Of a DNA stretch of 47,857 nucleotides, positions 8,228 through 32,172 are shown one piece after another (position 1 is the first letter of the stretch; each line of letters opens with the position of its first letter). Location: the NCBI GenBank assembly GCA_038843675.1, contig JAWBRV010000010.1:1-47857 (forward strand), in the 5' to 3' direction. The position numbers and the translations under genes are program-made. The notes beneath the pieces are model-generated. The model ran no database searches. It saw only the letters and a list, made by a program, of their open reading frames with translations, and had not been told where the DNA came from. The stretch comes from Candidatus Bathyarchaeia archaeon (lineage in GTDB: Archaea; Thermoproteota; Bathyarchaeia; 40CM-2-53-6; CALIRQ01).

Positions 8228-9241
8228 ATGGAGAGGGCGGGAGATTCGATATTGAGCTCGGAACCCGCGAAGAGGAAGTACGAGTTCATAGAGGATATAC
8301 CGGGCGTCGGGCCGGCGACGGCGGATAAGCTCAGGGAGATGGGCTTCCATACGATAGAATCCCTAGCGACCGCCACGGTCAAGGAGCTGATCCCGGCCGG
8401 CATCGGGGAGAAGCAGGCCCAGAGGATCATCTCGGAGGCCCGGGATAGCATAGCGCTCACCTTCATCCCAGCCAAGGAACTCATAAGGATGAGGCAGAAC
8501 GTCCTCAGGCTCACGACCGGCAGCAAAGCGATCGATGAACTCCTCGGCGGCGGCATAGAGACCCAAACGATAACCGAATTCTATGGGGAGTATGGGGTTG
8601 GCAAGAGCGTCCTTTGTCATCAGCTCTCCGTGAACGTCCAACTACCCATCGATAAGGGGGGATTGGATGGAGGGGCGCTCTACATAGATACCGAGCAAAC
8701 CTTTAGACCCGAGTGGATAGTGAGGATGTCCCAAGACTTGGGATTGGATCCCGATTCCGTTTCGCAGCGCATAATATATAGCGAAGCATATAACAGCGAC
8801 CATCAGATATTGATATTGGAGAAGGCTGATAAGATAATAAAGGATAATAACATAAAATTGATAATAATAGACTCCTTAACAGCCCACTTCAGGAGCGAAT
8901 ATTTGGGGAGAGAGATGCTGGCGGAGAGGCAACAGAAGTTAAACAACCATATGCATAAGTTGCTCAGGCTCGCGAGGGCGTTCAATGCGGCGGCCGTCGT
9001 CACGAATCAAGTCATGGCAAAGCCTGATGCTTTCTTTTCGGCCCCCTTGGAGGCGGTGGGCGGCCATATAGTGGCCCACACCTCCCATACGAGAGTATTC
9101 GTTAGGAAGGCAGCGAGCGGACCGGTCAGGATAGCGAAGCTCGTATCGAGCCCTTACCTACCGGAGGGGGAGAGCGTTTTCAAGATAACCTCTAGCGGCG
9201 TGAAGGATGTCACGGAAGAGGATCAGAAGAAGAGGAGATGA
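8228..9241 (+). CDS. radA: RadA recombinase
   Basis: RadA is the archaeal RecA/Rad51 homologue that forms filaments on single-stranded DNA and drives strand exchange. The 337-residue protein has an N-terminal helix-hairpin-helix domain (DIPGVGPATADKL, about residues 23-35), the polymerization linker (ALTFIPAKEL), Walker A GEYGVGKS (120-127), Walker B LIIIDSL (211-217) and the L2-adjacent AVVTNQVMAKPD. The Walker A loop differs slightly from the common GEFGSGKTQ. The next gene starts 7 nt after its stop. Confidence 0.97.
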   Translation: MERAGDSILSSEPAKRKYEFIEDIPGVGPATADKLREMGFHTIESLATATVKELIPAGIGEKQAQRIISEARDSIALTFIPAKELIRMRQNVLRLTTGSKAIDELLGGGIETQTITEFYGEYGVGKSVLCHQLSVNVQLPIDKGGLDGGALYIDTEQTFRPEWIVRMSQDLGLDPDSVSQRIIYSEAYNSDHQILILEKADKIIKDNNIKLIIIDSLTAHFRSEYLGREMLAERQQKLNNHMHKLLRLARAFNAAAVVTNQVMAKPDAFFSAPLEAVGGHIVAHTSHTRVFVRKAASGPVRIAKLVSSPYLPEGESVFKITSSGVKDVTEEDQKKRR

Positions 9242-9248
9242 TACGCGA

Positions 9249-9587
9249 ATGAAGATGGACCTTAAGAATTTTTTTAAGTTGTTATTGGAGAGGAAAATAA
9301 ATGAAGCGGAGAAGGAATTATCGAGGATGAGGGGGGAGGGGGGCTCGGAGTGGGAGCGAGGATTCATGAAGGCCCTCGAGGGGCTCCTGCTGGCCCAGAA
9401 AAACCCCAACGATAAATACCTCTTCCTAAATAGCGAGGCATTCACAAAACGAGAATTGAGGGAGCTGAAAAGGAGGTTCCTAAAGCATTCAAAGGATGAG
9501 CTCCATGCGGAGTACGATAGGGGATATTTCAGCTGCATGGTGGAATATGTGAAGGCCCTTGAGAAGATGGGCCCGGGGGAGGGCTAG
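9249..9587 (+). CDS. conserved-looking helical protein downstream of radA
   Basis: I do not recognise this 112-residue protein. It is predicted almost all helical, very charged, with a C-terminal half rich in Lys/Arg and Tyr (HSKDELHAEYDRGYFSC). The frame is open from 9207, inside radA, but the ATG at 9249 has a good ribosome site (gaggag just before the radA stop) and is preferred. Tight spacing after radA suggests co-transcription and perhaps a role in recombination or repair, by context only. Confidence 0.6.
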   Translation: MKMDLKNFFKLLLERKINEAEKELSRMRGEGGSEWERGFMKALEGLLLAQKNPNDKYLFLNSEAFTKRELRELKRRFLKHSKDELHAEYDRGYFSCMVEYVKALEKMGPGEG

Positions 9588-19967: not shown

Positions 19968-22448
19968 TTGGGCAAATATGGTGGATATATGGGCCGAATC
20001 CTCCGGGTGGATCTTTCCTCGGGATCGATCGAGGTAGAGGAGCTGGATTGGGAGATCGCGGCCAAATACGTTGGCGGAAGGGGCTATGCGGCGAAGCTCC
20101 TTTACGATGGCCTCCCGAAGGGCGTTGATCCCCTCTCCCCTGAGAACATCCTAGTATTCGCCACAGGGCCCGTGACCGGGCTCCCAGCGCCAACCTCTGG
20201 TAGGTTCTCAATATCGGCGAAGAGCCCGTTGACCGGCACCATAATGGATTCCAATTGCGGGGGATATATAGGGGTCGAGCTGAAGAGGGCGGGTTTTGAT
20301 GTCATCATAGTGGAGGGGGCCAGCCCCAGCCCAGTTTACCTCCTAATCCGCAACGAAGGGGCCGAGCTTAAGCCAGCGGAGCATCTATGGGGAAAGCTCG
20401 TAGACGAGGTTCAAGGGATGATAAGAAGGGAGGTTGGAGATGATAGGGTTAAGGTGGCCTCCATAGGGCCGGCCGGGGAGAATAGGGTCAGGATCGCCTC
20501 AATAATGGCTGACATCCATAGGGCCGCTGGGAGGGGGGGCTTGGGGGCCGTGATGGGATCGAAGGGTCTTAAGGCGATAGCCGCAATAGGCGATAAAAGG
20601 ATCGAGCCCGCTAACGAGCGCGCCTTCTTGAAGGAGGTCAAGATGGTTAATGAGGTGCTCTCCCGGAATCCACTGACGGGCGATACCTTAGGCAGATACG
20701 GCACTGCCTCCTTGGTCCATATAATAAACAGGGCCGGAATATTGCCGACGAAGAACTTCCAGCTGGGGACCTTCGAGGATGCTGAGGCGGTGAGCGGGGA
20801 GGCGATAGCGAAGAGCATCCTAGTCAAGAAGAAGGGCTGCTTCGCCTGCCCGATAATGTGCGGGAGGGTCACGAAGATAAAGGGCCCCGGCGGGGAGATA
20901 ATGAGCGAGGGGCCCGAGTATGAAACCGTATGGTCGCTCGGCCCTAATTGTGGGATCTCCGATATAGGGAGGATAGCCATGATAAACCATCTCTGCAACC
21001 TCTACGGGCTTGATACGATCTCCTTCGGCAATACGGTCGGATTTCTGATGGAAGCCCGCGAGAAGGGGTTGCTAGAGGTCGAGAAGCCTGATCTTAGATG
21101 GGGAAACCATGAGGCCGTTGAGGAGATGGTAAGGCTGACGGCTGAGCGAAGGGGGATCGGGGAGCTAGCATCAGAGGGCGTTAAGAGGATCTCGGAAAGG
21201 ATAGGTGGGAAGGAGTTCGCCATGCATGTGAAGGGGATGGAGCTCCCAGCCTATGATCCCAGGGGGGCGAAGGGACAGGGCCTCGCTTATGCGACATCAA
21301 ATAGGGGCGGCTGCCACCTCAGGGCCTATATGATAGAGAGCGAGATATTGAGCCTTCCGCGCTATTTGGATCCGCTGAAGAGCGAGGGGAAGGCCGGGCT
21401 TGTGAAGAGGATGCAAGACGTCTTCGCCGTCTTGGATAGCATGATAATGTGCAAATACACTACGCTGGCCCTGTTCAAGACCTTGGAATATGAGCCCTAC
21501 TTCTACGCCCGCCTCCTCACAACCGCGACGGGCTTCTATTTCGATGAAGAGGAGTTCCGCAGAGCCGGGGAGAGGATTTACAATATCGAACGCCTCTTCA
21601 ACGCTCGCGAGGGGTTCGGGAGGGTCGACGATTCGCTGCCGCCGAGGTTAAGCGGGACCCCGATGCCATCCGGGCCCGCCGAAGGCCAGATCATAGATTT
21701 GGGCCCAATGCTCGATGAATACTACGCCATCAGGGGATGGATGCCCAATGGCATCCCGTCGGACAAGAGGCTTCAAGAGCTCGGGATAATCTCGCAGCCC
21801 ACATGGCCGAAGCTCCAAGTCGCCTTGGATTTAAGGGATTTGGAGGAGGCCCTCAGGATAGCCGAACTCTCCCATAGGGGAGGGGCCGAATGGCTGGAGG
21901 CTGGCACGCCCTTGGTGAAGAGCGCGGGCATGAGGGCCGTCAGCGAACTCAGGAGGAGGTTCCCGTCAGCGACGATAGTCGCCGATCTCAAGACCTTGGA
22001 CACGGGTTGGCTGGAAACGGAGATAGCAGTCCTAGCGGGCGCGGATATCGTTTCAATATCCGGGTTGGCCAGCGATAATACCATAAGGGATTCAATCGGA
22101 TGCGCTAGGAAATATGGTGCTAAGGTCATGGTCGATCTCTTGGAGGTGAGGGATCCGATCAAGCGCGCAAAGGAGATAGAGGCGCTGGGGGCCGATTACA
22201 TATGCGCCCATTCAGCTATAGACGTGCAAAGGGATAGGGACCAAGAGATAGATAGGAAGGTATCCCTCATTGCGGACCTCGCCAAGTCGATATCGATCCC
22301 CCTCGCGGTCGCCGGAGGGATCAGATACGATACGGCGAGGAAACTTGTAAGGGCTGGGGCCAAGATAATAATCGTTGGGGCGGCGGTGACTAGGGCGGCC
22401 GATCCCATGATGGCGACGAGGAGGATCGTTGAATCGATCTGCTCCTGA
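19968..22448 (+). CDS. fusion: aldehyde ferredoxin oxidoreductase + 3-hexulose-6-phosphate synthase
   Basis: One uninterrupted 826-residue frame holds two enzymes. Residues 1-605 are a full-length tungsten-type aldehyde ferredoxin oxidoreductase: YMGRILRVDLSSG start, CFACPIMC with Cys291, Cys294 and Cys298 plus Cys495 as [4Fe-4S] ligands, GPEYET (315-320), GLDTIS (347-352), GGCH (447-450), and the usual C-terminal MLDEYYAIRGW and GIPSDKRLQELGI. Residues 612-826 are a complete hexulose-6-phosphate synthase barrel: LQVALDLRDLEEALRIAE, EAGTPLVKS, ADLKTLDTG with the D673-x-K675-x2-D678 catalytic set, MVDLLEV, VAGGI and VGAAVT. The synthase interconverts ribulose 5-phosphate plus formaldehyde with hexulose 6-phosphate; the first domain oxidises aldehydes with ferredoxin. 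TTG start with ggtgg 8 nt upstream. No hexuloisomerase or formaldehyde-activating enzyme is adjacent. Domain calls are firm; formaldehyde as shared intermediate is inference. Confidence 0.93.
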   Translation: MGKYGGYMGRILRVDLSSGSIEVEELDWEIAAKYVGGRGYAAKLLYDGLPKGVDPLSPENILVFATGPVTGLPAPTSGRFSISAKSPLTGTIMDSNCGGYIGVELKRAGFDVIIVEGASPSPVYLLIRNEGAELKPAEHLWGKLVDEVQGMIRREVGDDRVKVASIGPAGENRVRIASIMADIHRAAGRGGLGAVMGSKGLKAIAAIGDKRIEPANERAFLKEVKMVNEVLSRNPLTGDTLGRYGTASLVHIINRAGILPTKNFQLGTFEDAEAVSGEAIAKSILVKKKGCFACPIMCGRVTKIKGPGGEIMSEGPEYETVWSLGPNCGISDIGRIAMINHLCNLYGLDTISFGNTVGFLMEAREKGLLEVEKPDLRWGNHEAVEEMVRLTAERRGIGELASEGVKRISERIGGKEFAMHVKGMELPAYDPRGAKGQGLAYATSNRGGCHLRAYMIESEILSLPRYLDPLKSEGKAGLVKRMQDVFAVLDSMIMCKYTTLALFKTLEYEPYFYARLLTTATGFYFDEEEFRRAGERIYNIERLFNAREGFGRVDDSLPPRLSGTPMPSGPAEGQIIDLGPMLDEYYAIRGWMPNGIPSDKRLQELGIISQPTWPKLQVALDLRDLEEALRIAELSHRGGAEWLEAGTPLVKSAGMRAVSELRRRFPSATIVADLKTLDTGWLETEIAVLAGADIVSISGLASDNTIRDSIGCARKYGAKVMVDLLEVRDPIKRAKEIEALGADYICAHSAIDVQRDRDQEIDRKVSLIADLAKSISIPLAVAGGIRYDTARKLVRAGAKIIIVGAAVTRAADPMMATRRIVESICS

Positions 22449-24221: not shown

Positions 24222-24333
24222 TGCTCTCCCGATGGGATTTTATGTTCCGTCCTTAATTTACCTTATCGAAGCCCCTTCGGCCCCCTCACGCGAAGGCCCA
24301 AAATCCTATTTCAGTTAACAATCGTGCTCAAAG

Positions 24334-24466: not shown

Positions 24467-24811
24467 ATGGCCGATGCTCCGGTGCTCATACCGTTATTGG
24501 TCCTCGGGGCCCTGATCGGCTTTTTATTACGCGGAACGGGAGCCAAAATAGGCTGGAGGTTCGTGGCCCTTGGCTCCATTCTCGGAGGATTGGGGAACTT
24601 GGCGCATGGGGCCGTATTAATGCTGACCCGGGGCAGGATGGCGGCCGAGAGTGTTACCAGAATCCCGGCGATCAGGCAGGTCGTGGCCATCGATCCTCCC
24701 CCCCTCTTCCTAGCGCTCTGTTTCCTGACTGGCTCCCTCATGGTCCTATTCGTCTTCGCATCGGCAATCTTGATGCTCCGGATATGGAGGGGGAGAGGGC
24801 TTGAGGAATGA
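24467..24811 (+). CDS. small membrane protein heading the ABC operon
   Basis: A 114-residue protein with about three membrane helices (residues 7-23, 32-53, 80-105) separated by short polar loops, not a family I recognise. ATG at 24467. Its stop lies 11 bp inside the ATPase gene, so it is coupled to the ABC system and may be an accessory subunit. An ORF in the +1 frame over the same DNA is a shadow without membrane character. Confidence 0.6.
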   Translation: MADAPVLIPLLVLGALIGFLLRGTGAKIGWRFVALGSILGGLGNLAHGAVLMLTRGRMAAESVTRIPAIRQVVAIDPPPLFLALCFLTGSLMVLFVFASAILMLRIWRGRGLEE

Positions 24812-25508
24812 TGGGGAGATAGTAAGCGCCGAGGGGGTCACCAAGGTCTATTCCACAGGCGGATTGCGCTATGAGGCCCTTCGCGGGATATCGATCCGGA
24901 TCGAGAGCGGGGAACTCATTTCCATAGTGGGGCCCTCGGGCAGCGGGAAATCCACGTTGCTCCACATCATGGGCCTGATCGATAAGCCCAGCAGCGGGAG
25001 GGTCTTCTTCGAGGGCCGGGATACCTCGAAGATGGGCGAGGATGCGCTCGCGATGCTGAGGAACGAGCGCATCGGATTCGTCTTCCAAGCCTACAACTTG
25101 GTCCATCGCTTGACGGCCTTGGAGAACGTGGAGCTCCCCCTGATCTCGCGCGGAATTGACCCAAAGATCCGGCGGGAGAGGGCGATGAAAATGCTGGAGC
25201 TGGTCGGCCTTTCTTCGAAATACAAGAACAGGCCTTACGAGCTGAGCGGGGGTGAGCAGCAAAGGGTCGCAATCGCGCGAGCGCTCGTTACGAACCCCTC
25301 CATAGTTTTCGGCGATGAGATCACGGGGAATTTGGATAGCAAAACAACGCTCCAGATCGTGGAACTGGTGAGGGAGATAAATGAAAGTACCGGCACAGCC
25401 TTCGTCCTAGTGACCCATAACCCAGAAGTCGCCGCAGCAACCCGAAGGCGCATATTCCTACGGGATGGGAGGATAGAAAGGGACGAACGGAGGGAGGATT
25501 TCAATTGA
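24801..25508 (+). CDS. MacB/LolD-type ABC transporter ATPase
   Basis: A 235-residue ATPase of the MacB/LolD family, which powers mechanotransmission or lipoprotein/peptide export rather than classical transport. Walker A GPSGSGKST (about residues 41-49), signature LSGGEQQRVAIARAL, and Walker B IVFGDEITGNLDSKT, where the family usually has ADEPTGNLD. TTG start at 24801 has gggagaggg upstream and overlaps the previous gene. Its TGA overlaps the start of the next gene (TTGA). Confidence 0.92.
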   Translation: MRNDGEIVSAEGVTKVYSTGGLRYEALRGISIRIESGELISIVGPSGSGKSTLLHIMGLIDKPSSGRVFFEGRDTSKMGEDALAMLRNERIGFVFQAYNLVHRLTALENVELPLISRGIDPKIRRERAMKMLELVGLSSKYKNRPYELSGGEQQRVAIARALVTNPSIVFGDEITGNLDSKTTLQIVELVREINESTGTAFVLVTHNPEVAAATRRRIFLRDGRIERDERREDFN

Positions 25509-26479
25509 GGGATATCCGCCTCGCGCCGGCCATATTGATTGCGCTGATCGCATTGGGATATGCAACAACTTCGTTCTCGGTCCAAGGGGCCGTCTATCAA
25601 ACGCCGCAGTTCAAGGTCGTGAGGGCGTCTTGGGGCACCTCTGACTCCGAGATCCAATCTGCCCCGGGGGATAAGAACATACCACTTTTAGTTATCGCGC
25701 AAAACATGAGCAATTCGACCATCACTGGCTTGAGCGGGACCTTGTTCCTGCAACCGCCCTTCTCCAACATCTCCGGCGGAAGGCTCGCCCGCGCCTTCTA
25801 TGAGGGCAGCGTTCCCCCAGGATCGACGTTCCTTTTGAGGTTCCCCTTGAACATAGATCCAGACGCGAGCCCGGGCGAGTATCGGCTGAGCATGAGGATC
25901 GAGTACCTAATGCTCGTAAGCGGCGTTGGGAAGACCCTCTACGTCGCCATGGAGGGAATTGTAGATATCCCAGTCTTGGTTACGGGAATGCGCTATCTAA
26001 TGATCTATTCCTTGAGCACTTTGCCCAGCGAAATTCAGCCGGCCGGGAACTTCACGATATCCGGGAGCATAGTCAATACGGCCTCCTCGAGCTTCTATAA
26101 CACCAACGTTTCGGTCTCATCGCCCGCGCTCGTGCGCTCTCCCTTCCTATTCATGGGGCAGGTGGATCCGAACATCCCGAGGCCGTTCAGCTTCTCCCTC
26201 CAAGCCAAAAGGGATCTCCAGAGCGGGGAGTACCCGATCAAAATCACAGTAACCTATCGAGATTCGCTAGGCGTGATCCATGTCAACTCGGCGACGGTGA
26301 CCATAAGCGTTCAACAGCGCGCGATCCAAACTAGGCCCGTAATAACCCAAGCGGAGAGGGGTCCCTTAGAAACGGCCATTGAGATCATTTGGAGGCTCAT
26401 CAGGTTCTTCCTCGGCCTCTTCGCCCTGCCATCCATCGGGCGCGCATGGGAGGGATTTCAGGCGCTTGCGAGCGGCTGA
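25505..26479 (+). CDS. secreted/anchored envelope protein of the ABC operon
   Basis: A 324-residue protein with an N-terminal signal or anchor segment (LAPAILIALIALGYATTSFS), then about 260 residues of beta-rich, Asn/Ser/Thr-rich extracellular sequence with several N-x-S/T sites (MSNSTITGLSG, FTISGSIVNTASS), and a C-terminal amphipathic/hydrophobic stretch (IIWRLIRFFLGLFALPSIG). This resembles the archaeal S-layer-domain (COG1361-type) proteins that accompany MacB-like permeases. TTG start overlaps the ATPase stop. Confidence 0.65.
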   Translation: MRDIRLAPAILIALIALGYATTSFSVQGAVYQTPQFKVVRASWGTSDSEIQSAPGDKNIPLLVIAQNMSNSTITGLSGTLFLQPPFSNISGGRLARAFYEGSVPPGSTFLLRFPLNIDPDASPGEYRLSMRIEYLMLVSGVGKTLYVAMEGIVDIPVLVTGMRYLMIYSLSTLPSEIQPAGNFTISGSIVNTASSSFYNTNVSVSSPALVRSPFLFMGQVDPNIPRPFSFSLQAKRDLQSGEYPIKITVTYRDSLGVIHVNSATVTISVQQRAIQTRPVITQAERGPLETAIEIIWRLIRFFLGLFALPSIGRAWEGFQALASG

Positions 26480-27698
26480 TGTATATTCGATGGCCCTCAA
26501 GGCGCTTAAGGATCGGAAGCTACGGAGCGCATTGACAATCCTAGGCATCACAATAGGATCGGCCCTCATAGTCGCCTTGGTCGCATCCACCGGCGGCCTC
26601 ACCGCCAGCGTATCCAAGCAGATAGAGAAGATAGGCATTACGACCATAATGATCTCCTCAACCTCGCCTCGATTCCAGATCACCGATGAGGACGTAATCT
26701 CCGTGAGGGGGATCCCGGGCGTAAAGGACGTCATCCCCTATATCTCTAGGAGGTTGAGCCTCAATTATGGAAGCAACAGCCTCTCCGTTTCGCTATTCGG
26801 GATCGAGCAGGGCAAGATCCAATCGATTTACAAGGGTCTCGCCTTAAGCCGGGGCACCTTGGCCGATGAATATGACCCGACCGGGGTGATCATTGGATCG
26901 GCCATAGCCAATCCCCCATCCGAGAGCTTTCCACCCCTCGACGTCAACGAGATGCTGATCCTCCAAGGGGGAGTTGGCTCGTCAACGTCGACATATTCCT
27001 TCATAGTAAAGGGGATCCTAGCGCCCTATGGCGCCGCGGGGTTCTTGGATATAGACGAGGCCGTCTTCATGAGCTTAACCGGAGCGCGCCTGTTATTCCG
27101 TTCGGCATATTATTCGGGCTTGTACGTCATCGCGGAGTCGGCCGACGCGGTGGACTCCGTCGTGACCTCATTACAAAACTATTACGGCTCAAGCGCTAGG
27201 ATCAGTAGCCCCTCCGCGCTCCTATCCACCGCGCAATCAGTCACCACTCAGCTCACCTACTTCCTCGGGAGCATCGCGGCGGTTTCGCTCTTCGTCGCCG
27301 GGGTCGGGATAGCTAATACAATGTATATCTCGGTCGTTGAGAGGACCCGGGAGATAGGGATCCTTAAGGCGATCGGATACAGGCCTAGGCAGATCCTCTC
27401 GCTCTTCTTGGCGGAGGCCGCGGTAACCGGGATGATAGGAGGCTTGATCGGGACGTCGGCCGGTGTGCTGCTGTCCTTCCTCCTAAGCGGGAATCTGCCG
27501 TTCGGTTTCCGGGTTCCGGGCATCGGGTTCAGGCCCGGCCAGAGCGCGACCGCGGGCGCATCCTTCTCGCCAGCGCTTTCCGCGGAGCTGATCCTCTTCT
27601 CCCTAACTTTTCCAGTGGCCATCGCGATCCTAGCGGGGCTTTACCCAGCTTGGCGCGCTTCTAGGATGGATACAGTGATCGCCCTGAAGTACGAATGA
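26466..27698 (+). CDS. MacB/FtsX-type ABC permease
   Basis: A 410-residue permease with the MacB layout: an N-terminal membrane helix (LTILGITIGSALIVALVAST), a periplasm-facing MacB_PCD domain (about residues 50-270), then three membrane helices including the conserved VERTREIGILKAIGYRPRQI loop. The frame runs upstream to 26379, but TTG 26466 gives the family start (MRAADVYSMALKALKDRKLR) with gggagg about 12 nt before it; ATG 26490 is the alternative. It overlaps the envelope protein gene by 14 bp. Confidence 0.9.
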   Translation: MRAADVYSMALKALKDRKLRSALTILGITIGSALIVALVASTGGLTASVSKQIEKIGITTIMISSTSPRFQITDEDVISVRGIPGVKDVIPYISRRLSLNYGSNSLSVSLFGIEQGKIQSIYKGLALSRGTLADEYDPTGVIIGSAIANPPSESFPPLDVNEMLILQGGVGSSTSTYSFIVKGILAPYGAAGFLDIDEAVFMSLTGARLLFRSAYYSGLYVIAESADAVDSVVTSLQNYYGSSARISSPSALLSTAQSVTTQLTYFLGSIAAVSLFVAGVGIANTMYISVVERTREIGILKAIGYRPRQILSLFLAEAAVTGMIGGLIGTSAGVLLSFLLSGNLPFGFRVPGIGFRPGQSATAGASFSPALSAELILFSLTFPVAIAILAGLYPAWRASRMDTVIALKYE

Positions 27699-27743
27699 GG
27701 GGCGGGAGAGGCTTTGGGGGAAGGTAAGGGGGCATAATTAGGG

Positions 27744-30700
27744 TTGAGGGGATCGCTTTCATCAATACTCCTCTTGGCGATCCTGAGTCCCCTCCCTTGG
27801 ATGGGGAAGGCGCTGGGGAGCGATGTGCCAGTTGAGATGTCCCCCGGCAAGGTCCCGCCACTGGGCAATAACCATTACCTAAGGACCCCGGAGGTTCGGG
27901 TCAAGGCCGGATTCTCGAGGGCGATAATCCTCCAAGAAACCGTTGGGGATCTCCTGTTCAGTGTAACAGTCGAGGGAAGGAGGCGGAACATAGCGATCTA
28001 TATCCCGCCGGAGTTCGGGGTGAAGGGCTTAGATCACGTTTGGACCGATATAACGAACGATTATCGATTCATATCGCTATCGAGGCTCTCCGACCGCGAC
28101 CCGATAGCCCCCGGGTGGAGGAGGGTCCTCGTTTCTAGCGAAAGGGGCATACCCCCGGGATCCCATTTCATAAGGATATTCAATGTCACCGCCCCCAGTA
28201 TCGTTGGGCGATATTTCTTCAAGATATATGTGGACGGTGCCTCCATTGGTGCCGAAAATTTTCCAACGCTCGTGGTATCGGCGGACCCGAACCCGGCCTA
28301 TATCTCCGGAACGGTCCTTGACGGCGGTAGGGATCCGACGCGCTACGGCAGGCCCATTCGCCTCGAGGAGGGGCAGGGCGGGATGGTCATAGCGGAGGGG
28401 GTGACCCCGGATGGGCGTGTGATCGTGGCCCAAGCCTTCTTCAATTCATCGGCCAATGGTCGATATACCCTCTATGGCCTAGCCCCGGGCATATATCGAT
28501 TAACCGCCTCAGCCGCGGGCTATTATAACGCAACAAAGCCCGAGCCCGTAGCGGTACTCGCTGGCCAATCGCTGGAGGGAATCGATCTGCACGTGAGCCC
28601 AAGCCCGAGGATAGAGGGGATCGTGTGGTCCAAATGCGGGGGATTCCCATGCGAATGGGGATCTATCGGCAGGAGGCCCGGGCCGATGGGCGGCGCCGCC
28701 TTGGTCTACGTGGGCTCAGGCGTTCTCCCGGGATGCGATCTGATATACGCGTTCCGCGGGGGCAATAGCACCGATTTCTTCAGATATGATGCCATATCGG
28801 ATAAATGGGAGCCGAAGCGATCAGCTCCGGGCCCGGTGGGCCCCGGGGGTTCACTCGCCTTCGATGGCATTCAATACATTTACGCCCTCCAAGGAGGGGG
28901 CTCTCGAGCGTTCTGGCGCTATGATATTGTGGAGGACGAGTGGGAGGCTTTGGAGGACGCTCCATTCCCCGTGGGAGCTGGCGGGTCCCTCGTTTTCTGC
29001 GGGGGCTTGATCTACGCCCTGGCCGGCGGGGGCTCGAGTGGGTTCCGATACTACGATCCTGTGATGGGCCAATGGGGGGGATATCTCCCGGATACCCCCC
29101 ATCCGATCGGGGCAGGGGGATCGCTCGTCTTCGCCGATGGCTCCATATATGCGCTGGCTGGGGGCGGCACGAGCCATTTTTGGATGTATAACCTCTCCGA
29201 TCCCGCCCTAGGTTGGCAAACCCTCGCAAGCGCGCCCTTTTCTGCGAAGGACGGGGCATCGATGGCATACGATCCCATCAATAAAGTCATATACGCGCTC
29301 GCGGGAGGGGGCTCGGGAGATTTCAGATATTATTCGACGACTTGGATGGTTTGGTCATCATCCCTATCCTCCCCTGACTGTGTTAAATCCGGGGGTGCGT
29401 TGGCATTCGACACCAGCAATGGAAGGCTTTATGCGTTCTTGGGGGGAGGGTCGGAGGCCTTTCGGCGCTACGATCCATCCTCCGATTCATGGGGCGATGC
29501 GAAGTCCTTCCCATCGCTTTATCCTAGGCCCATATCGATCGAGATATTGGATTCCCTAGGCAATTCGAAGCGCATCCTCCAAGGACTAACCGATCCTGAA
29601 TCGACGAGATTCGATTTCTCCTATGGTGGGGAGATCAAGCTCGATGGGCATATACCCCAAGACGGCGCGGGATACATTTCCGGCATCTCCCCGGGATCCT
29701 ATATCCTCAGGGCTTGGGCGAACCAATACATCCAGCCGAGCGCGGTGGAGCTCCCCGGCCTCCACATCAAGGCGACCGGCGTATGGATCGACCTCTCGAG
29801 CCAAGACGCATCGAAGAGGATCGAGTTCGACATCCACCGAGCCGGCCGGGCGGAGATAACGGTGCATTTCAAGGATTATGCAGGATTGAAAAAGGCCACG
29901 CCTATCGGATCCGATAAAACGCTCACGGTGGAGATATACGACCGCGATGGGACCGTATGGGCGCGCAACTCCACGAAGGTGTACGCCGGGAACTCCTCCG
30001 GATCGGTTATCCTGACGGGCCCATTGGGTACCCTTCGGGACTACGGAATCCCGAAGGGCACCTACGGCATCAGCGTTTCCATCCCCGGGTTTTACCAGCC
30101 CTACGATTCCTACATCACCATCTCCGAGAATAACGCCGCGACGAGGATGAGCCTCGAGGTCCTCAAGGGGGGATCGTTGAATATCACGATCAATCCCGTG
30201 GACATGCAACGGCCTTCGATACCTAGGAAGTGGCGCCATCCCGGCGAGCCGATAAGGGTTGAGGTTAGGGACAGATATGGCGTTGAGATAATCGCTTCAA
30301 ACGTCACCTTTCAGAGGCTTCCCCCCCATGAGGGGGAGGGGGCGAGGCTCTCCATAACCGGGCTGAGGGCCGGCATTTACTCAATCCATATCTTCACCTA
30401 TGGATACGTCCAACCCAGCCCCTATTATGTTTCCGTATTCGAGGGCATTATGACGGACGTATCCGTGGACGTCATGTTGGGATGCGAGCTCAATATCACG
30501 GTGATCCTCAAGAAGGAGGGCATCTTCTCCAATGGCGTGGATACCTACCCCTTCTCCTCGCGAGTCCCAGTTCGCGTTCAAGTCTTGGATTCGATGAATC
30601 GGTTCGTGGCAGCAGCGACCTCCCATATACCATCGGACTCCAAAAGCTTCAGCCTATTGCTGGCCGGCTTCAGGAGATACGCGGGCGGCTATTCCGATCG

Positions 30701-31139
30701 AAGATGGATCAATTACTACGATACAACAGATGGCTCGGCGCAGCGCGATTATGGGCTGGCGGCCGACTCCTATAGGATACTAGTATATGTGCCGGGTTTC
30801 ATGCAAAGCGAGGAGATCGTAACGCCAGCGCCCCCCCAAGGTGGAAACGTGAGCATCATCCTGAGCCTTGAGCGGCTGGCGCATTTGACCGGGCGCGTCG
30901 AGAGCTTCGATGGCTTCGGGAGGCTCGTATACCTTAATTGGGCGAGGATCGATGCGATCGGCATCAATTCGAGGGATTCCGCGCCGACCTTGGATGGATC
31001 CTTCGAACTATGGCTTAAGGGGGGCCGCTATTTTATCATCTGCTTTTCAGACGGCTATGGGATGGTTTCGAAGGAGATAGCGATATCCGATGGCTCCGAT
31101 TCATCCCTCGATTTCCGCTTAGAGGCGATCCCCGCTTGA
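27744..31139 (+). CDS. large secreted Kelch / carboxypeptidase-regulatory-like protein
   Basis: An 1131-residue protein with an N-terminal signal peptide (SSILLLAILSPLPWMGKALG). Parts in order: a beta domain (about 30-185), a carboxypeptidase-regulatory-like module (about 187-285; NGRYTLYGLAPGIYRL), six Kelch repeats (about 332-590) predicted to form a beta-propeller, and then four or more further beta-sandwich modules with the same 'G.Y.I.V...GY' pattern (TYGISVSIPGFYQP, IYSIHIFTYGYVQP, SYRILVYVPGFMQS). Many N-x-S/T sites suggest glycosylation. No C-terminal anchor is visible. TTG start at 27744, 45 nt after the permease. Probably surface-exposed or secreted, handling or binding polymers; substrate unknown. 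Confidence 0.8.
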   Translation: MRGSLSSILLLAILSPLPWMGKALGSDVPVEMSPGKVPPLGNNHYLRTPEVRVKAGFSRAIILQETVGDLLFSVTVEGRRRNIAIYIPPEFGVKGLDHVWTDITNDYRFISLSRLSDRDPIAPGWRRVLVSSERGIPPGSHFIRIFNVTAPSIVGRYFFKIYVDGASIGAENFPTLVVSADPNPAYISGTVLDGGRDPTRYGRPIRLEEGQGGMVIAEGVTPDGRVIVAQAFFNSSANGRYTLYGLAPGIYRLTASAAGYYNATKPEPVAVLAGQSLEGIDLHVSPSPRIEGIVWSKCGGFPCEWGSIGRRPGPMGGAALVYVGSGVLPGCDLIYAFRGGNSTDFFRYDAISDKWEPKRSAPGPVGPGGSLAFDGIQYIYALQGGGSRAFWRYDIVEDEWEALEDAPFPVGAGGSLVFCGGLIYALAGGGSSGFRYYDPVMGQWGGYLPDTPHPIGAGGSLVFADGSIYALAGGGTSHFWMYNLSDPALGWQTLASAPFSAKDGASMAYDPINKVIYALAGGGSGDFRYYSTTWMVWSSSLSSPDCVKSGGALAFDTSNGRLYAFLGGGSEAFRRYDPSSDSWGDAKSFPSLYPRPISIEILDSLGNSKRILQGLTDPESTRFDFSYGGEIKLDGHIPQDGAGYISGISPGSYILRAWANQYIQPSAVELPGLHIKATGVWIDLSSQDASKRIEFDIHRAGRAEITVHFKDYAGLKKATPIGSDKTLTVEIYDRDGTVWARNSTKVYAGNSSGSVILTGPLGTLRDYGIPKGTYGISVSIPGFYQPYDSYITISENNAATRMSLEVLKGGSLNITINPVDMQRPSIPRKWRHPGEPIRVEVRDRYGVEIIASNVTFQRLPPHEGEGARLSITGLRAGIYSIHIFTYGYVQPSPYYVSVFEGIMTDVSVDVMLGCELNITVILKKEGIFSNGVDTYPFSSRVPVRVQVLDSMNRFVAAATSHIPSDSKSFSLLLAGFRRYAGGYSDRRWINYYDTTDGSAQRDYGLAADSYRILVYVPGFMQSEEIVTPAPPQGGNVSIILSLERLAHLTGRVESFDGFGRLVYLNWARIDAIGINSRDSAPTLDGSFELWLKGGRYFIICFSDGYGMVSKEIAISDGSDSSLDFRLEAIPA
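28738..29511 (+). repeat. six Kelch repeats inside the secreted protein
   Basis: Six units of about 43-48 residues share the pattern: aromatic/aliphatic-YAL-x-GGGS-x2-F-x2-YD, then W, then P-x-P-x-G-x-GGSL-x-F. Units 2-5 have YALAGGG or YALQGGG almost unchanged. Six blades suit a closed propeller. Confidence 0.8.
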
Positions 31140-31217: not shown

Positions 31218-31733
31218 TTGAAGATGGCCGCGGAACGCCCCATGGCTTGGGCATTGGCCGCCTTCTCGGCGGCCCTCGGCTTGGAGGGCTTGTTAATCTC
31301 CCACCTGCAGGGGATGGGATTCCATCTCCCGGCCCAGCTCCCGACGATTGGTCCATTAGCCTCAGCGCTCCTCTTGCTCCTTCCCGCTCTAGCGGCCGCC
31401 GCCCTCGCCGCCTCCTGCTGGTTCGAGGCCGTTTCCACCAAGGGTGGCTTGATCGCGCTGGGGCCGCGGACCAAGGCCTTTGCCCTTTCAGCCATCCTGT
31501 TTTCCTTCGGGGCCGGGGCCTACCTTCCCAACCTCTTGACTTCCGATGCCTTCATGGGGATCCTGAGGGGTGTGGTTGCGATCGCCCCCCCTTTGGAGGG
31601 ATGGATGCAAATCTTCTCCGATGCCGCCCTCTCATTCTTCCGATTGGAGGGTGTATGGAAATACCTAATATCCCTGAACCTCGCCTCCGCGGCCTCCGCC
31701 TTGATGGCCTATGCGCTTAAGAGGAGGATTTGA
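31218..31733 (+). CDS. polytopic membrane protein
   Basis: A 171-residue protein of Ala/Leu-rich membrane helices (about residues 9-30, 44-68, 84-104, 148-166) with no family I recognise. Start is TTG 31218 with gggag upstream or ATG 31224 two codons later. It is 78 nt after the Kelch gene and is followed 58 nt later by another small membrane protein; either the tail of the Kelch operon or a separate unit. Confidence 0.6.
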   Translation: MKMAAERPMAWALAAFSAALGLEGLLISHLQGMGFHLPAQLPTIGPLASALLLLLPALAAAALAASCWFEAVSTKGGLIALGPRTKAFALSAILFSFGAGAYLPNLLTSDAFMGILRGVVAIAPPLEGWMQIFSDAALSFFRLEGVWKYLISLNLASAASALMAYALKRRI

Positions 31734-31791
31734 GGATTGGAAAGATTTATCCCCATGCCGACCTCCAATTGGCTCCAAAGGGTGGCTTCGC

Positions 31792-32172
31792 ATGGCCTTG
31801 GAAAAGGATAAGGAAAGGCCGGGGAGGATCCTGCTGGCCCCCTCGGTCCTTCATTTGATCGCGGCCGCGTATTTGATCGCGATGACCATATTCCTTGATC
31901 GGACGATGTTCCACCTCTACGCCATCTCGGCCCTTTCGATCGCGGCCGCCGTGGGAGGGCTGAAGGCGTTGCGCTGGGGGCTCTGGGCCTCCCTCTTGGC
32001 GGTGCCCCTCATGATCGCCTTGGCGATAGGGGCGCTGTATTACTCGATCGCCATAAGGGGTCTTGCCCCAGATGCTGTGACTATAGCCTTCCATGCCTCA
32101 TTGTTAGGCCTAGCTGCCATTTCGGTTATAGCAACGTTGATATTTTTAGCTAAGAGGGATCATTTCAAATAG
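31792..32172 (+). CDS. small four-helix membrane protein
   Basis: A 126-residue protein with four hydrophobic segments (about residues 16-36, 40-57, 59-80, 92-118) and charged ends. ATG 31792 with ggtgg about 7 nt upstream is preferred over the upstream GTG/TTG region at 31711. It ends 27 bp inside the end of the convergent glycosyltransferase gene. Function unknown. Confidence 0.6.
   Translation: MALEKDKERPGRILLAPSVLHLIAAAYLIAMTIFLDRTMFHLYAISALSIAAAVGGLKALRWGLWASLLAVPLMIALAIGALYYSIAIRGLAPDAVTIAFHASLLGLAAISVIATLIFLAKRDHFK

Follow-up and report, generated by a model that had tools for sequence, protein, structure and literature searches.

A MacB-class ABC unit with a giant secreted protein in a Bathyarchaeia order: a candidate ATP-powered cell-surface machine

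The window analysed here, a stretch of 47,857 nucleotides of contig JAWBRV010000010.1 (C10) from the genome of a Candidatus Bathyarchaeia archaeon (GCA_038843675.1; 1.36 Mb, 20 contigs), carries five consecutive genes, O1 to O5, for a small membrane protein, a MacB-type ATP-binding cassette (ABC) ATPase, an anchored protein, a MacB-type permease and a giant secreted protein. Units that join an ABC motor to such a giant recur in the order to which this archaeon belongs, some with a transporter of a second class, ABC-2, in place of the MacB type, and this recurrence suggests an ATP-powered cell-surface machine. The five genes lie head to tail on the plus strand between positions 24467 and 31139:

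24467-24811, plus strand: O1, 114-amino-acid membrane protein with two transmembrane segments predicted from hydropathy
24801-25508, plus strand: O2, LolD/MacB-type ABC ATPase (Pfam, NCBIfam and motifs)
25505-26479, plus strand: O3, secreted or anchored protein with an N-terminal signal or transmembrane helix, two immunoglobulin-like (Ig-like) beta-sandwich domains and a C-terminal helix
26466-27698, plus strand: O4, MacB-type permease of 410 amino acids with four transmembrane segments
26526-27179, plus strand: extracellular MacB_PCD domain of O4 (Pfam)
about 27270-27671, plus strand: FtsX domain of O4 (Pfam)
27744-31139, plus strand: O5, secreted giant of 1131 amino acids with a signal peptide and no C-terminal transmembrane anchor
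27825-28283, plus strand: N-terminal beta domain of O5, which defines the family (residues about 28-180; alignment A1)
28296-28643, plus strand: CarboxypepD_reg-like domain of O5 (residues about 185-300; Pfam, E 5.4e-15)
28689-29519, plus strand: six-bladed Kelch propeller of O5, a variable insert (residues about 316-592; Foldseek)
29529-31121, plus strand: rod of further beta-sandwich domains of O5 (residues about 596-1126; secondary structure of the AlphaFold model)

The first-pass annotation had described five closely spaced open reading frames (ORFs) here, and all five are present, O1 to O4 overlapping by 11 bp (O1/O2), 4 bp (O2/O3) and 14 bp (O3/O4), with 45 bp between O4 and O5. The O3/O4 overlap refers to a start of O4 at TTG 26466, set by aligned relatives within an ORF that opens at 26379. 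The order O1 to O5 is found again in genomes G023 (locus L046, where the giant is truncated at the contig end) and G005 (L047), at 34-69% identity by BLASTP, which argues that the five ORFs are real genes.

O4 is a permease of the MacB class (type VII) of ABC systems by its domains, its membrane topology and the motifs of its partner ATPase. It matches MacB_PCD (E 3.8e-22, 80 bits) and FtsX (E 5.1e-22, 78.6 bits), both above the Pfam cut-offs, and its hydropathy peaks at residues 22-40, 259-277, 310-328 and 375-393 give four transmembrane segments, the first two separated by about 218 residues, a large extracellular domain. The best profile match in the PDB is MacB (5lil, E 1.9e-43) over the whole length, and SpMacB (5xu1), YtrF (9o9x), LolF and LolC/E are matched as well. 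O2 matches ABC_tran (E 6.6e-31, 108 bits), and the stretches that we take to be the Walker A (GPSGSGKST), signature (LSGGEQQ), Walker B and H-loop motifs are intact on reading of the sequence. The scores of MacAB-TolC, LolCDE and FtsEX are not reached: ATPase and permease, which are fused in MacAB-TolC, are separate genes here, with 214 bits for O2 and 100 bits for O4 against the 966-bit cut-off of PRK10535, the MacAB-TolC model; for LolCDE, LolD, the best NCBIfam match of O2, gives 250 of 307.75 bits and LolC/E 84.5 of 362.45 bits; for FtsEX, FtsE gives 193 of 264.85 bits and the FtsX models 26-34 bits against cut-offs of 225-255. No family of the HlyD/MacA type was found by Pfam in O1 to O5 up to E 1, and this, together with the archaeal host, makes action in the manner of MacAB-TolC unlikely, as the first-pass annotation had argued.

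Evidence that motor and giant belong together comes from other genomes. Giants were searched for with a profile of the N-terminal part of O5 (alignment A1), which matched 19 of 256 genomes of the class. The order of the window, represented by 38 genomes, accounts for 18 of these, the one analysed here being counted; the remaining match, outside the order, is marginal and covers the CarboxypepD-like part only. Among 398 genomes from the phylum six were matched, all in the window's order, and a short-pattern scan of species genomes gave four loci corresponding to G001 and G002 from the window's genus and to G019 and G025 from its order. Altogether 59 ORFs carry the A1 domain, and 13 of them adjoin a MacB permease and an O3-like protein, with the ATPase visible in 12 of these units (the contig ends in the thirteenth, L050). 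The corresponding clade of giants has 16 members, namely 12 linked and three unlinked rows of the giant tree plus L053, which is linked and too short for the tree. Linkage between giant and ABC genes elsewhere, whose absence the first-pass annotation had beforehand named as one refutation, is seen for 13 of these 16 giants, in 12 genomes; each is the last gene of its unit, on the same strand and 19-72 bp behind, even where permease and O3 have swapped places (L057, L061, L064). If the ABC-2 units described below are included, all 27 linked giants stand on the same strand directly behind an anchored-protein or permease gene at a gap of -4 to 72 bp (for L039 the gap rests on a start chosen by alignment). 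Genes were called with a greedy script that can miss some, such as the ATPase of L048, which was recovered by tblastn at 97% identity.

The linkage can also be read from the permease. In the 18 genomes with a giant, MacB_PCD was matched 29 times, 28 times above the cut-off, and in 13 of the 29 a giant follows; the window's own genome has two such permeases, each with a giant behind it. In a tree of 57 rows the giant-linked permeases fall into one order-specific group of 21 (support 83/99), of which 13 are linked, seven are not and one lies at a contig edge; the main group from outside the order (25 rows) is separate, and four outside rows are long-branched and have no firm place. A permease profile at a threshold of 500 bits, which favours giant-linked permeases because it was built from those 13, retrieved 18 loci, the 13 linked ones together with L149, L166, L167, L168 and L172. 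At L166 the contig ends just after O3. L149 (799-3795; G036:C97) is a mixed arrangement: a permease that belongs with the giant-linked ones (536 bits) is divergent from a neighbouring giant that has the N-terminal histidine described below, and neither ATPase nor O3 is nearby. Other unlinked MacB_PCD permeases score lower and lie mostly elsewhere in the permease tree. Outside the order, the 30 best-scoring loci were examined (one without a permease match): 19 of the 29 permeases have an O3-like neighbour, mostly of about 470 amino acids, and no A1-type giant occurs within the short flanks (about 1.5 kb).

The genes of the unit also appear to have been inherited together. Over 12 loci the distances of O2, O3, O4 and O5 correlate (r 0.77 to 0.97; none of 5000 permutations as high), and the Mantel correlation of permease and giant is 0.834 (again none of 5000, over the 12 loci, species history being uncontrolled). 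Shared species history alone would produce a correlation too; it does not explain that the nearest relatives of O2, O3, O4 and the N-terminal part of O5 are those of G005 and G023, the paralogue in the window's own genome being farther. In G002, a sister species, a single deletion has taken about 5.9 kb between window positions 24700 and 30604, from inside O1 to inside O5, and the flanking genes are kept in order on both sides. What is left is a degraded scar on the reverse strand (L186, G002:C14, about 8560-9304), in which the start of O1, interrupted by stops like the rest, lies next to the end of O5. From the ordered flanks, the missing segment and the broken remnants we infer that the genus once had the five-gene unit and that G002 lost it as a block. 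The assembly of G001 is interrupted at the unit, one contig ending at window position 24268 on one side and another at 31038 on the other.

The giant itself is built around a constant N-terminal part. Besides CarboxypepD_reg, Pfam detects Kelch_6 in O5 (E 6.2e-10, 39.2 bits against a cut-off of 25.3) and PEGA at residues 768-798, and the only sign of S-layer kinship in NCBIfam is a weak local match, at 11.7 bits against a cut-off of 1400, to a protein of the anammox S-layer. The AlphaFold model has a mean predicted local distance difference test (pLDDT) score of 78.4 and a predicted template-modelling (pTM) score of 0.60; its propeller, in which we counted six repeats by eye, superimposes on 8pjs with a root-mean-square deviation of 2.4 over 275 columns (Foldseek, target template-modelling score 0.78). 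For the N-terminal domain no relative by sequence was found in the PDB, the best match of the A1 profile (E 0.11) falling in the next domain. The first-pass annotation called the giant a Kelch protein. Kelch as its hallmark had to be given up: the propeller is present in only three of the 13 MacB-linked giants (the window, L046, L047; L053 is truncated before that region), and a model of the Kelch region, run against the ORFs of the searched loci, matches just these three and the stand-alone L043. What the giants share is the N-terminal beta domain and the carboxypeptidase-regulatory-like domain. L043 (3610-5784; G000:C3) is a secreted Kelch protein with a proline-rich linker and a C-terminal transmembrane segment, and its propeller, similar to the insert of O5, is a possible source of the Kelch domain.

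O3 would be the link between giant and permease. Its AlphaFold model (mean pLDDT 78, pTM 0.45) consists of two Ig-like sandwiches (residues 36-159 and 165-269) and a C-terminal helix (residues 287-323) that is hydrophobic over residues 290-308. The structure matches (Foldseek, VIA) are tandem sandwiches; the top Foldseek matches are transglutaminase C-terminal barrels, which we read as a common fold and not as kinship. By sequence, no relative was found in the PDB up to E 1, and the Pfam family NPCBM_assoc is matched below threshold by the window's O3 (E 0.075, 13.7 bits against a cut-off of 24.4) and above it by the O3-type protein of the ABC-2 unit L040 (42.8 bits). The earlier description of O3 as an S-layer-like anchored protein is thus fair as regards the two sandwiches and the hydrophobic helix, and loose as a label.

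O1, previously counted as a standing member of the system, does not keep that rank: it has no match in Pfam or NCBIfam, and orthologues directly before the ATPase were found by BLASTP only in L046 and L047 besides the window. Its position is occupied at L039 (5233-6399) and L049 (9458-10627) by the N-terminal part, about 165 residues with three transmembrane segments, that is fused to the MacB-type ATPases there. That O1 is a split-off form of this part was considered and rejected for lack of similarity (hhalign E 0.2; best BLASTP E 0.9).

A view of the system as MacB-only is too narrow, as 14 further loci in 14 genomes carry a homologous anchored protein and giant beside an ABC-2 transporter (class ABC2_membrane_3). 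In six of these units (L040, L048, L051, L055, L059, L062) the ATPase, one permease, the anchored protein and the giant succeed one another on one strand; in the other eight (L052, L060, L065, L135, L140, L142, L147 and L058/L137, the last with its parts on two contigs) the adjoining genes, on the opposite strand, are those of an ATPase and two permeases, with one permease visible at L140 before the contig ends. The anchored protein has about 420 amino acids and the giant 1220-1293 where complete, with one of 1072. By profile, the N-terminal parts of the two types of giant match each other (hhalign E 3.4e-55); O3 of the MacB units shows a weaker profile match to the anchored protein of the ABC-2 units (hhalign E 1.6e-13). 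The giant tree, which contains 46 of the 59 rows (13 were omitted as fragments or too distant), separates the two: ABC-2-linked giants lie on one side of a branch with support 99/96, and a second branch (100/97) sets apart the MacB-linked giants, among which the three unlinked ones are found; the motor label needs five changes compared with a mean of 22.9 in shuffles.

The giants outside the MacB clade share a further feature, a motif [AGS]|H.TLG in which histidine is the first residue after a typical signal peptide. It occurs in 32 of the 33 ABC-2-linked or unlinked giants with a visible N-terminus (the exception is L148), in one of eight distant ORFs (one a fragment) and in none of the 16 of the MacB clade; two of the 59 rows lack the N-terminus, and the pattern was written after the sequences had been viewed. 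The histidine-bearing N-termini are those of L040, L042, L048, L051, L052, L055, L059, L060, L062, L065, L134-L147, L149-L154 and L161-L163. A second histidine, often in HVPGP, is frequent 20-51 residues downstream. To judge from the sequence, the N-terminal histidine looks like a metal-binding site; proteins with metal-binding N-terminal histidines have recently been sought deliberately (PMC12537917, in part). Searches with the histidine-bearing domain gave four PDB matches, none better than E 0.27, and in Pfam one weak match in one of 14 members.

How might such a unit work? Members of the MacB class have been described as using ATP hydrolysis for extracytoplasmic work, no substrate being carried across the membrane (PMC5985334, in part). 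We propose an ABC machine of this class with two dedicated extracytoplasmic partners, a model to which, taken as a whole, we assign a probability of roughly 0.45. Dimers of O2 would hydrolyse ATP and thereby move the extracellular domain of O4. O3, with its two Ig-like domains at the membrane, would sit on this domain in the place that MacA has in MacAB. O5 would be exported by Sec via its signal peptide and dock on O3 and O4 as a long outward beta rod, whose position or binding state the ATP cycle would alter; relay of the motion of O4 through O3 to the rod is suggested by the combination of a MacB-class permease with linked extracytoplasmic parts. The rod probably holds glycan or envelope material, to judge from the carboxypeptidase-regulatory-like domains and, in the window copy, the Kelch propeller. 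The system may thus remodel, load or grip the cell surface and not pump drugs outward, and other members of the order may couple the same kind of anchored protein and giant to an ABC-2 motor. More tentatively still, the order may possess a surface device with a standard outer half, consisting of Ig-like adaptor and giant rod, an interchangeable MacB or ABC-2 motor, and a putative metal-binding N-terminal histidine in the ABC-2 and unlinked branches that is absent from the MacB branch.

Several observations weigh against the proposed partner model. Thirty-two of the 59 A1-domain ORFs lie outside such units, which implies that the giant can work without one. Several of these ORFs are at contig ends, one of them (L156) being probably the C-terminal end of the linked L062 giant, since each of the two is found where a contig of the same genome ends, and four are near a lone MacB permease or ATPase, including L149, L161 (permease) and L134 (ATPase four genes off). 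Even within the MacB clade, three genus-specific giants (L041, L132, L133) have no ABC genes nearby, and three permeases of G010 (L167, L168, L172) are close to the giant-linked group and lack an adjoining ATPase, O3 and giant. Moreover, six of the 14 ABC-2 units have one permease and one ATPase as motor, and ABC-2 transporters normally export substrates. Co-inheritance of an operon, finally, is equally compatible with co-regulation.

Two other explanations of the unit appear less likely to us, and to a similar degree. In the first, which the first-pass annotation put forward, the giant is the client of the ABC pair: after Sec export O5 would remain close to the membrane, and O2, O4 and O3 would extract, fold, release or assemble it into the surface layer in a manner resembling the extraction of lipoproteins by LolCDE. 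LolD is after all the closest NCBIfam family of the ATPase, and O5 carries a signal peptide and lacks a transmembrane segment at its C-terminus, where its relative in G005 has IPEF plus such a segment. However, neither the LolD nor the LolCE cut-off is reached, and the signal region of O5 contains no cysteine and thus no lipobox, which would leave extraction of the Lol type without a handle. Nor do the anchors of the giants fit a client well, as an own C-terminal transmembrane segment is present in 20 of the 23 unlinked relatives with a visible end and also in nine of the 19 linked giants (Fisher p 0.008; relatedness is uncorrected, independent events are few, L156 was counted as the end of the L062 giant, and L135, which is short, and L149_1, which ends in masked sequence, were scored as anchorless). 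The frequent loss of the anchor in linked giants fits docking of the giant on the complex.

In the second explanation, the ABC genes would export a peptide, lipid or glycolipid that O3 and O5 then receive, scaffold or hold at the surface. That the partner pair is found with two unrelated ABC classes, MacB-type and ABC2_membrane_3, is most easily explained by cargo delivery, and not force, as the shared task, and Pfam families linked to carbohydrates, for example fn3_3, turn up among the matches of the beta domains in O5 and in its relatives. Use of an ABC-2 motor agrees either with delivery of cargo as a shared task or with mechanical coupling of a second kind; NosDFY is an instance of mechanical coupling by a motor of the ABC-2 type. 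Against export by the MacB units stands that proteins of this class show no sufficient channel across the membrane (in the parts of PMC5985334 that bear on it). Simple co-regulation, in which an adhesin would be co-transcribed with an ABC cassette for defence or efflux without a joint mechanism, would agree with the giantless permease and O3-like pairs outside the order, and is rendered improbable by the recurrence of 13 MacB and 14 ABC-2 units over several families, by shifts of gene order within the unit that leave the giant behind the anchored protein or the permease, and by the split of the giant tree by motor.

Among known systems, the proposed machine is closest to SpMacB, YtrF, LolF and FtsEX, members of the MacB class without an outer-membrane duct, which resemble O4 in having a permease of the MacB_PCD/FtsX type and would share with it the work outside the membrane described for type VII. 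In contrast to these, the window unit has no adaptor of the HlyD/MacA type and no cell-wall hydrolase, and an Ig-like anchored protein and a giant rod instead. NosDFY is likewise an ABC system other than a plain transporter. The same applies to YtrBCDEF, which comprises two ATPases, two membrane proteins and YtrF (PMC7828314, in part), the solved chain of the latter being matched by the O4 profile. The partner proteins of NosDFY and YtrBCDEF show no relation to O3 or O5 in PDB and Pfam searches, the sole comparison made. A further parallel involves ABC proteins of the SalXY family, which we take to be MacB-like. Archaeal loci in the neighbourhood of arCOG01994 combine small membrane proteins, SalXY-family ABC proteins and S-layer proteins, for which membrane remodelling was predicted (PMC5898192, in part); the side-by-side arrangement of small membrane proteins, ABC proteins and S-layer-like proteins is common to these loci and the window unit, whereas an AAA+ ATPase is present there, the loci belong to three euryarchaeal lineages, and the passages describing them mention no such giant. 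Within Bathyarchaeia, the pairs of MacB permease and O3-like protein outside the order resemble the window pair, differing in the longer O3-like protein and in the lack of an A1-type giant in the short flanks.

As to the surroundings of the unit, misbinning of the contig is unlikely, as the AFOR-HPS fusion, a ligase, O6, O7, GT2 and a topoisomerase are kept in this order in the same-genus genome G002, with protein identities of 79-93%. The fusion (window 19968-22448) is one ORF in which aldehyde ferredoxin oxidoreductase (AFOR) is joined to a 3-hexulose-6-phosphate synthase (HPS)-like domain, and it is kept as a single ORF in G002 at 92% identity. Downstream of O5 and on the same strand, two small membrane proteins of 171 and 153 amino acids are encoded at 31218-32172; they are retained in G002 after the deletion and are probably outside the five-gene unit.

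In the literature searched, which left most subscription journals outside its coverage, there is no account of this system. MacB permeases beside O3-like proteins occur elsewhere in the class, and archaeal SalXY/S-layer loci have been described (PMC5898192, in part); new, as far as that literature shows, is a family of giants specific to the order that comes last in every MacB unit and is paired with motors of two classes. A cultivated member of Bathyarchaeia, of the order B26-1 and thus of another order than the window's, possesses an S-layer as well as an outermost sheath (PMC10477458, in part), so that a long surface rod would have a place to act. The A1 domain is the partner family to look for in further genomes. 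To our knowledge, the use of MacB-type ABC systems in monoderm archaea is hardly known, and one lineage here offers a unit that is compact and clearly delimited, has a giant as partner and comes with two types of motor, and in which the action of a motor on a surface protein is directly testable. If the proposed partner model is true, mechanotransmission would reach beyond bacterial cell walls and outer membranes.

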